A stretch of 38,966 nt of DNA, from assembly GCA_028282145.1 (NCBI GenBank), contig JANQIN010000025.1, positions 1 through 38,966 on the forward strand, read 5' to 3'. Both the position numbers and the translations under genes were made by a program. Within the stretch, counting starts at the first letter, position 1. Every line of letters starts with the position of its first letter. Positions 12,366 through 18,008 of the stretch are shown in pieces. A model generated the notes under the pieces. That model was not told the origin of the DNA. It saw only the letters and a list, made by a program, of their open reading frames with translations, and did not search any database. Source of the stretch: Thermodesulfobacteriota bacterium (lineage in GTDB: Bacteria; Desulfobacterota; Desulfuromonadia; Desulfuromonadales; Geopsychrobacteraceae).

Positions 12366-12466
12366 ATCTCCCGGGCTTTTATCCCGCCGTGTACCCTACC
12401 GCTGTTTACCGGTAGGGCTGCAGCTCTCGGACCAGTCGCACTTTTGGATGCCGGAACCCTAGCTGC
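12366..12466 (-). promoter_or_regulatory. Guanidine-I riboswitch aptamer (ykkC class)
   Basis: On the minus strand all hallmark blocks of the guanidine-I (ykkC) aptamer appear in order: CTAGGGTTCCGG (12462-12451), CTGGTCCGAGAG (starting near 12435), ACACGG (about 12392-12387), and GGGATAAAAGCCCGGGAGA at the 3' end. The closing stem pairs GCAGCT (12466-12461) with AGCTGC (12425-12420). The variable stem pairs CCCTACCG (12417-12410) with CGGTAGGG (12401-12394). This class binds guanidinium and normally turns gene expression on. It precedes a guanidine import and carboxylation operon, exactly its expected setting. This is the strongest single piece of evidence for the pathway's substrate. Confidence 0.97.
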
Positions 12467-12483
12467 TATCGTTTTCTCAAATC

Positions 12484-15859: not shown

Positions 15860-17611
15860 ATGACGATCAAGTTCAAATTGCTGACCGGCGGTTTGCTTAC
15901 GGCGGCAGCTCTGTTGTTTTTTTTGGGGGTAACTCTGGTTTCTTTTGGCACGCTGCTGTCCGGATTTGAGCAGGTGGCCAAGGAGACCGACAAAGCGGTC
16001 AGCAGTTCTGCCAAGGCGGAACAGATCAGCTCTCAGGCATACGGCAACCTAACCCAGGTTGCCGGCAGTATCGACCAGGTCTCTTCCGATATTGTTCAGG
16101 CGAACCAGTCGGTGCAGATTCTGGAACGGAGAATCTCCAAACTGTCGAAAGACCTGACCGACCTTACCCAGCAGATGGAGGAGGTCTACGAATCGATACC
16201 CGAAGGCGATACACGTTATGCATTACAAGATATCGCTGACGAAATCGTCGATATGCAGGAGGGGATGAAACGGGAAGCGCTGGTCAGCCTCGGGGCAGCC
16301 GTAAAGCAGATGAGTGCTTCCTCCGAAGCCTTGACGAAAGATACAACCATTCTGGGAGAGGTGACACAGGAGATTTCCCAGAGCCGTACCATGGTCAATG
16401 CGGTCAGTCAGAGTAACAACCGGATTCAGCAGCTGACCACTCGTTTCCGGGAGGTGATCGATTCCAAGCGCGGTCTGCTGATCGCTATCCTGGTCGTGGT
16501 TGTCATCCTGATTACAATGGCGGCACTGGTGCTGGCCCGTCAGATCTCCCGGGCGCTCAGCCAAGTCCTGGAGGTGGCAGAAGAGGTTGCGGAAGGAAAC
16601 CTCAACCTGCAGATCCGAACCGAGGGCAGGGATGAGGTCGGCAAACTGAGCCGGTCCATGCAGACGATGCTGCTGAGCCTGCAGGTCAAAGAACAGTTTG
16701 CGGCATCGGTGGCCGACGGGAACCTCCAGGTCAATCTCAAGGATCTGAGTCCCAAAGACCGCCTGGGGTGCTCGATGCAGACCATGGTGGAGAACCTGCG
16801 GCAGATTATCGGAGAGGCAGAGAGCGTTGCTGTTTCGGTCAACGATGGTGCTTCGCAGATCTCCTCGGCCAGCCAGACTCTCTCCGAGAATTCCACCAGT
16901 CAGGCGAGCTCCACCGAGGAGGTCTCCGCCTCTCTGGCCGAAATTACCTCGCGAACGCAGGAAAGCGCGGCCAATGCCAATGAGGCCCAAAAGTCGGTCA
17001 GAGGGACCAAAGAGGCGGCCGATTCGGGTGTGCAGCAGATGAAGCAGACCATGGTGGCCATGCAGGAGATCAATCAGGCCGGGCAGGATATCTCCAAGAT
17101 TATCAAGACGATCGACGAAATTGCCTTTCAGACAAACCTGTTGGCGCTCAACGCGGCCGTCGAAGCGGCTCGGGCCGGCCAACATGGCAAGGGATTCGCC
17201 GTGGTCGCGGAGGAGGTGCGGAATCTGGCTGCCCGATCGGCCAAATCGGCACAGGAAACCGCCGAACTGATCGAAACCTCTGTTTCCAGAGGAGAAAACG
17301 GGATGCAGGTGGCGACACGGACCGAAGAAGCCCTCACTCGCATGCTGGAGGGGATCACCACGGTTTCCAGTCTGGTGAGTGAGATTGCGGATGCTTCCCA
17401 ACAACAGGCTCAGGGGTTGTCCGAAGTCAACACCGGATTAACGCAAGTCGATCATATCACGCAGCAGAATACGGCCGGTGCCGAAGAAAGTGCGGCCGCT
17501 GCGGCGGAACTGTTCAGCCAGTCGCAGCAATTAAGCACCCTTCTTGCGAGATTTCGGGTGGACGGAGATGGGATGACTGATTCATCCGGGCCATTGCAGC
17601 TGGAACAGTAA
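15860..17611 (+). CDS. Methyl-accepting chemotaxis protein
   Basis: A 583-residue chemoreceptor. One membrane helix lies near residues 9-33, then a periplasmic all-helical region of about 170 residues rich in Gln, Ser and Thr, a second membrane helix near 205-226 ([20 protein letters not shown]), a HAMP domain, and a long methyl-accepting signalling domain. The hairpin tip that contacts CheA/CheW is present ([17 protein letters not shown] from residue 424). There is no CheR-tethering pentapeptide at the C-terminus. GAGG lies 6 bases before the ATG. The upstream secreted PilJ protein probably supplies ligand input. The periplasmic domain was not assigned to a named family and may itself be helical-bundle-like. 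Confidence 0.95.
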
Positions 17612-17640
17612 TACCCCGATCACGGAATCGGCAGATCGGT

Positions 17641-17850
17641 CAAGAGGGTCATGAAGGCATGACCCTCTTGAGACTGTTGACAAACAGTCAGCTCGAGCCC
17701 AGGGATGGGCGAGCCACAAAAAGCAGAAAATACGGAACTGCTTTTTGGTGAGTGAAGCAAAACCGCGCTTTTGCGGAACGGGTATGACAAAGACCTCGGA
17801 CGGACTTTGTCATCAAACGGAGGGTCATGAAGGCATGACCCTCTTTTTTT
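17641..17850. repeat. Array of seven consecutive hairpins bounded by two copies of one palindrome
   Basis: Almost every base of this non-coding stretch belongs to a hairpin. (1) 17641-17670, a 13-bp stem, arm GAGGGTCATG, loop AAGG. (2) 17672-17689, GACTGTT/AACAGTC. (3) 17691-17714, GCTC..GCCCA/TGGGC-GAGC. (4) 17717-17747, CAAAAAGCAG/CTGCTTTTTG. (5) 17757-17774, GCAAAA/TTTTGC. (6) 17784-17813, ATGACAAAG/CTTTGTCAT. (7) 17820-17843, the same palindrome as (1), with a T-run. The identical end palindromes suggest a small inserted or duplicated element. No open frame of note lies inside. The remaining non-coding DNA to 18008 is AT-rich, with a possible -10 TACAAT at 17940-17945. Confidence 0.8.
17820..17850 (+). 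terminator. Intrinsic terminator after the chemoreceptor gene
   Basis: GAGGGTCATG, loop AAGG, CATGACCCTC, followed by seven T residues (17844-17850) form a standard rho-independent terminator on the plus strand. It is the distal copy of the palindrome found again at 17642-17669, where the T-run is missing. Confidence 0.88.
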
Positions 17851-18008
17851 ATGCAAGAAAATCGACTGAAGCACCTTCCTGCAACAACAAGATTTTGTGA
17901 AATGAATTCTCTTTTCTGGGCTTTTCAACTGAATTTGTTTACAATTTAAGTAAGAAAATTCATTAAGTTACTGTTGGGAATTGAACTGGCATTTTTTAAG
18001 GAGTGGTT

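Follow-up and report, generated by a model that had tools for sequence, protein, structure and literature searches.

The 150-bp non-coding segment at 17670-17819 (+ strand) of the window, the whole 38,966-nucleotide stretch analysed here, is almost certainly a non-autonomous insertion sequence (a MITE) with ends of the IS1182 type, which was inserted by shape into the intrinsic terminator of an MCP gene with duplication of the whole stem-loop. The dispersed family, the terminal repeats, the stem-loop duplication of variable length, the unoccupied sites and the complete IS1182 elements that obey this insertion rule can each be read directly from the sequences.

Structure of the hairpin stretch

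The upstream gene, whose terminator is the target, encodes HAMP and MCP signalling domains according to gene and domain calls (15860-17611, + strand). The hairpin stretch lies between the stop codon of this gene and a CheB-CheR-PAS gene that has the same orientation. As the sequence-only reading had described, seven hairpins adjoin one another at about 17640-17850: a first copy of the terminator stem-loop, P0, P1, P2, P3, P4 and a second copy of the terminator stem-loop. The folding energy of 17620-17870 was -107 kcal/mol, against -68 +/- 5 kcal/mol for shuffled sequences (z -8), and none of the 200 shuffles was as good.

The first and last hairpins, already noted as identical, are an exact 26-bp direct repeat, GAGGGTCATGAAGGCATGACCCTCTT, which is itself a stem-loop. 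The copies lie at 17644-17669 and 17820-17845 (both + strand), 176 bp apart, and the 24 bases noticed earlier are the paired part (hairpin span, 24 of 26 nt). The terminator scan of 17550-18000 found a sole + strand terminator, at 17819-17844, so that the T-run stands on the second copy only, as the same reading had it. The left copy is thus the one without a T-run, and the right copy, followed by the T-run at 17844-17850, is the predicted working terminator.

The 150 bp between the two bounding copies carry the five further hairpins, P0-P4; the assignment of this segment as a MITE also draws on about 130 matches in the genome and on the alignment of recent copies (A4). No protein-coding gene was assigned over it, and the sole open reading frame there, 17620-17928 on the - strand, is a mechanical 102-aa frame across the hairpins. 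The left terminal inverted repeat, GAGACTGTTGACAAA (17670-17684, + strand), was compared with the IS1182-family ends CAGACTGTTGACAAA (L300) and CAGATTGTTGACAAA (L297). In the fold, this repeat and its complement form P0 (17672-17689, + strand; GACTGTT-GACA-AACAGTC), of which six more perfect copies are present elsewhere in the genome and others with one to three mismatches. The right terminal inverted repeat (17806-17819, - strand) reads TTTGTCATCAAACG on the + strand. Elsewhere in the window, a Guanidine-I riboswitch was found at 12366-12473 on the - strand (Rfam RF00442, 90.3 bits).

Dispersed copies

A BLAST search with 17612-17860 gave 48 matches in the same genome, nearly always to the middle part and not to the flanking stem-loops. 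The covariance model R1, built from 35 copies (alignment A1), gave 133 matches at E<=0.01 in the 3.24-Mb genome, and matches were obtained in 20 of the 136 genomes of the order. The spread over these genomes is patchy, as expected for a mobile element: among the listed genomes, for example, one of genus g3 has it, as do most of the larger ones in g39. The suggestion of a repeat family is therefore borne out by the multicopy middle part; the outcomes that had been named as counting against the first interpretation, a single copy and a lack of covariation, were not found. The phage and plasmid collections contained no close copy of the element. The multicopy elements of Geobacter metallireducens, as described in PMC2700814, do not correspond to it.

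Several copies of the element in G000, the draft genome, are located at contig ends (C75, C156, C197, C255 and C275), and the repeat probably breaks the assembly. At L053 (G000 C159:4700-5140) three 150-bp units stand in tandem, each consisting of a terminator stem-loop and an element copy. One copy, at L052 (G000 C81:4800-6500), is flanked by a 42-bp direct repeat, CGGTCGGGAATCGCAGGCGACCGGTGACGGTCGGTAACCGGT, which resembles another repeat family. At L231, L232, L239, L240, L241, L254 and L257 an antisense gene stops no more than about 2 bases from the 3' end of the element, and its TGA stop codon may come from GTTTGATG in the right end. In a Mariprofundaceae MAG (L076, JAIPJD010000059.1, 2900-3100), the P3 motif GTAAGTGGAGCAAAACCGCGCTTTTGCG stands beside a AGCCAGGGATGGCT hairpin, and this MAG is a named relative of part of the element.

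Duplicated stem-loops and unoccupied sites

For each copy, 85 bases upstream were compared with 55 bases downstream. A stem-loop was present on both sides at 10 loci of this genome, the window included, and at 7 loci in G090. The flanking stem-loops are specific to their locus, and the spacing between their edges and the element hardly varies. The top scores between flanks of different loci came from pairs within tandem arrays, shared contig ends, matches internal to the element or generic terminators. The search for copies with the same flanks that had been proposed at the outset thus gave a divided answer: the kind of flank, a duplicated stem-loop, is constant, but its sequence differs at each locus.

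In G090, the duplications around recent copies, which are nearly identical, are clean and 17-30 bp long, for example AAGGCCGCTTCTTCGGAAGCGGCCTTC (27 bp), TAAGACCGTAGGTCTTT (17 bp) and AAACGACGGTCATTATTGAGACCGTCGTTT (30 bp). The flanks of five G090 insertions were joined with one stem-loop and searched against the genus. Element-free homologous sites with a single stem-loop were obtained, three in G081 and one in G088; in the latter, the homology covers the left side and continues through the stem-loop. At these four sites the alignments of the left and right flanks overlap by 17, 18, 30 and 24 bp, exactly the lengths of the duplications. This demonstrates insertion with duplication, the ancestral state being one stem-loop. 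Together with the same layout around different stems at many loci, these sites bear out the earlier suggestion that an element entered a terminator and duplicated its stem.

The length of the duplication (17-31 bp) follows the span of the hairpin, with r=0.94 and a mean excess of 1.6 bases over 18 sites (16 MITE sites and two complete ISs). Many of the 3' stem-loop copies are followed by a T-run, but not all. It is therefore the stem-loop that is the target, terminators being the commonest stem-loop targets. The second stem-loop is absent at L038, L066, L092 and L132, and most of the older, short copies have no visible duplication in the flank comparison; decay would explain such copies, although this is not proved. 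At L078 (G009 C1:556900-557018), the duplication extends past the stem-loop and its T-run to include AGGCTGTTGGC from an adjacent end, which may be left over from a second copy.

Element ends and IS1182-family transposases

Recent copies have the left end CAGRCTGTTGACAAA and the right end CAGTTTGATGACAAA, the latter being the family consensus on the - strand in the alignment of copies. These are imperfect terminal inverted repeats, and in G090 and G000 they occur as pairs with a spacing of about 150 bp. In the window copy, the left end is the GAGACTGTTGACAAA given above and the right end is one T short of the consensus.

A search of the order for the DUF772 transposase domain yielded complete ISs with matching ends: L297 (CAGATTGTTGACAAAGTCC), L301 (CAGACTGCTGACAAAGTCC) and L302 (GAGGTTGTTGAAAAAG). 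A truncated IS with matching ends, L300 (CAGACTGTTGACAAAGTCC), is cut by its contig. The transposases of the complete ISs belong to the IS1182 family (NF033551, cut-off 270), scoring 480 bits for L297, 480 for L301 and 434 for L302. An exact stem-loop duplication frames L297 (27 bp) and L302 (31 bp); at L301 the hairpins on the two sides differ. Among plasmid-borne elements, those whose transposases are closest to that of L297 have the ends CAGACTGCTGACAAA or similar, and all nine of those tested lie between exact hairpin copies of 16-25 bp. They come from Rhizobium, Aminobacter, Sphingobium, Klebsiella, Brevibacillus and Alkalihalophilus (ISBspe1), that is, from alpha- and gammaproteobacteria and Bacillota. 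No exact hairpin duplication was found in the distant IS1182 members ISEfa7, ISCfr1, ISShsp2 and one from Sinorhizobium (30-40% identity). We therefore claim the rule for one subgroup of IS1182 only.

Although the sequence-only reading had matched the stretch to no feature type known to it, the element fits a known one. It is short, non-coding and multicopy, with terminal inverted repeats, a target-site duplication and unoccupied sites in relatives, as a MITE is; autonomous partners with the same ends are L300, L301 and L297 in the order and the named plasmid ISs. No IS1182 transposase was found in its own draft genome, nor one with the element's ends in G090. The mobiliser is accordingly deduced from the similarity of the terminal repeats and from the target behaviour.

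Some other candidates were set aside. Multi-copy ISs in G090 that match the IS1182 profile weakly have different ends (TAGTGTCCATCCGGAAA and TAGTCGATCGTTC) and are not the partner. Unpaired 15-bp end motifs in G090 and G089 lie mostly inside ordinary genes, with no adjacent transposase. The IS1202 family, with its long duplications, was also dropped; the outer ends of that family are TGT/ACA (PMC10132070). An IS with TAGTCGTCCCTGAAAAA ends at L313 (G115 C1:816697) has TCGCCCCCCGCACGGGGGCGT repeats on both sides and probably sits in a CRISPR array.

The covarying core

The four internal hairpins, all on the + strand, covary. P1 (17697-17710; GCCCA-GGGA-TGGGC) has a conserved loop, and 94% of its alignment cells are paired. 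P2 (17715-17750) is variable in sequence, with changes on both sides in 9 of 11 pairs. P3 (17752-17779), in which an inner stem GCAAAA/TTTTGC encloses CCGCGC, has such changes in 7 of 11 pairs. In P4 (17784-17813), which has a GGA loop and a 3' arm overlapping the right terminal repeat, they occur in all 12 pairs, and 93% of cells are paired. The loops of P1, P3 and P4 are conserved. The covariation check proposed with the first description was thus positive: both-side changes were found in 30 of 39 pairs and in 146 cells, against 43 in shuffled alignments, with controls that do not remove shared ancestry. The core covariation score, to which the same limit applies, was 0.308 against 0.110 in shuffles.

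When the covariance model was run against the complete ISs, no convincing match was obtained (best 14.6 bits). The MITE therefore does not seem to have arisen by simple deletion from such an IS. A sister type of MITE was found at L135-L141 (G002) and L144 (G093). It has homologous P0-P4, but its ends are of the IS5 type (CAGGCTGTTGAAAAA / CAGGATGTTGAAAAA), and its duplications are of about 4 bp, CTAG-, CTAA- or TTAA-like, with no stem-loop duplication. The IS5-family elements L298 and L299 have ends that match this sister MITE and CTAG duplications like it. The stems could stay paired through a constraint at the level of mobilisation or through repair between the hairpin arms. It is also conceivable, though we think it rather doubtful, that P1-P4 form a functional module under a constraint of its own, an RNA or single-stranded DNA to which a factor of the host or of transposition binds, and that two transposase families carry this module, with IS1182-type ends and stem-loop duplication in G000 and G090 and with IS5-type ends and CTAG duplication in G002 and G093. 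If so, the core would be a structured passenger that switches its mobiliser through small changes of the ends.

Alternative explanations

The covariation, strong as it is, would also be expected of a cis-acting RNA in the 3' UTR, such as a decoy that binds CsrA/RsmA through ANGGAN loops in P1 and P4 and has been spread by selection in mRNAs. The loops of P1 and P4 are ANGGAN-like, in 84 of 95 copies a GGA lies close to the position of the P4 loop, the P1 loop CAGGGAUG agrees with both the CsrA consensus RUACARGGAUGU and the ANGGAN hexaloop (PMC7652899), and CsrA is encoded in 9 of the 10 genomes tested, this one included. In the model-fitted alignment, moreover, G-U pairs outnumber A-C mismatches (126 against 64). 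This excess, however, disappears in the unfitted alignment (32 against 29) and nearly so in an alignment-free count (82 against 70). There is also no bias for the sense orientation: between tandem genes, with gene calls that are simple predictions, 15 copies are sense and 22 antisense, a distribution that speaks against a cis-acting RNA, and a random orientation is what palindromic targets would give. Nor did Rfam give a match at 17640-17850, either to a CsrB/RsmZ-type sRNA or to another known RNA family. From these comparisons such a decoy appears unlikely. Of the structured RNA suggested earlier, what stands is the covariation of the internal hairpins; the even use of the two orientations and the Rfam search speak against the rest.

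Less likely still is ordinary tandem duplication or recombination of the terminator, with a middle part unrelated to transposition. The array at L053 demonstrates that amplification of this kind occurs, but at many loci this middle part is enclosed by stem-loops that differ from one locus to the next, and the clean unoccupied sites with a single stem in sister genomes refute it. Similarly, we give very little weight to a REP/REPIN origin, in which a RAYT (Y1) transposase would have moved the element by acting on hairpins in single-stranded form. The hairpins near both ends, the intergenic position and the many copies found here would suit such an element. Against this, no Y1_Tnp (PF01797) match was found in the draft genome G000, although the domain is present in 117 of the 136 genomes of the order, and the element ends in terminal inverted repeats and is flanked by a true target duplication. 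To our knowledge, the REP/REPIN class makes no such duplication.

Proposed mechanism and relation to known systems

Insertion of an IS1182-end MITE by shape would proceed as follows. An IS1182-family transposase, encoded elsewhere or formerly present, would mobilise the element in trans. The target, here the terminator stem-loop, would be chosen by its shape, possibly as an extruded cruciform. At the 5' feet of the stem-loop, the 3' ends of the element would be joined to both strands; repair of the gaps would then leave one complete stem-loop on each side. The upstream stem-loop, severed from the T-run, would be read through in vivo. The downstream one, with its T-run, would still terminate, and the insertion would be nearly harmless, with a longer 3' UTR. 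Since the T-run stays with the downstream copy, termination should shift by about 176 bases downstream.

IS1272, of the same family, targets stem-loops, often terminators, and removes its target (PMC5678879, PMC4923244). One further pathway drawn in the model of PMC5678879 has the 3' ends joining at the 5' feet of the stem-loop, with duplication of the entire stem-loop. The present data match this pathway; its chemistry we infer. In the open-access literature, the targeting of palindromes by IS1182 was known before, and whole duplication only as a proposed pathway.

The restored complete terminator explains how the element can fill terminators without abolishing termination. The rule was found in every close IS1182 relative tested, named plasmids included, so that a biochemical test can use known elements, and the roughly 130 copies in one genome offer a natural data set already at hand. 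In most DDE transposons the target duplication has a fixed length. A duplication as long as the target hairpin, from 16 to 31 bp, points to choice by DNA shape, that is, by the feet of a cruciform.

The ISs of the IS1182 family with CAGRCTGYTGAxAAA ends (ISBspe1 and relatives, L297 and L302) have the same terminal repeats as the element and, like it, duplicate an entire stem-loop exactly, the length varying and the site often being a terminator. They encode a DDE transposase of 460-490 aa, whereas the window element is a non-coding 150 bp, and the model did not find its hairpin core in them. IS1272 and TnSha1 (IS1182 family, staphylococci) are similar to the element in recognising stem-loops by shape, often at terminators (PMC5678879, PMC4923244). 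In IS1272, however, the stem-loop is replaced or deleted with no duplication, while here it is retained and doubled, unlike a replacement of the IS1272 type. With bacterial MITEs the element shares its small size, lack of coding capacity, terminal inverted repeats, many copies and target duplication. It differs from other bacterial MITEs in that its target is a DNA shape and the length of its duplication, rather than being fixed, tracks the hairpin.
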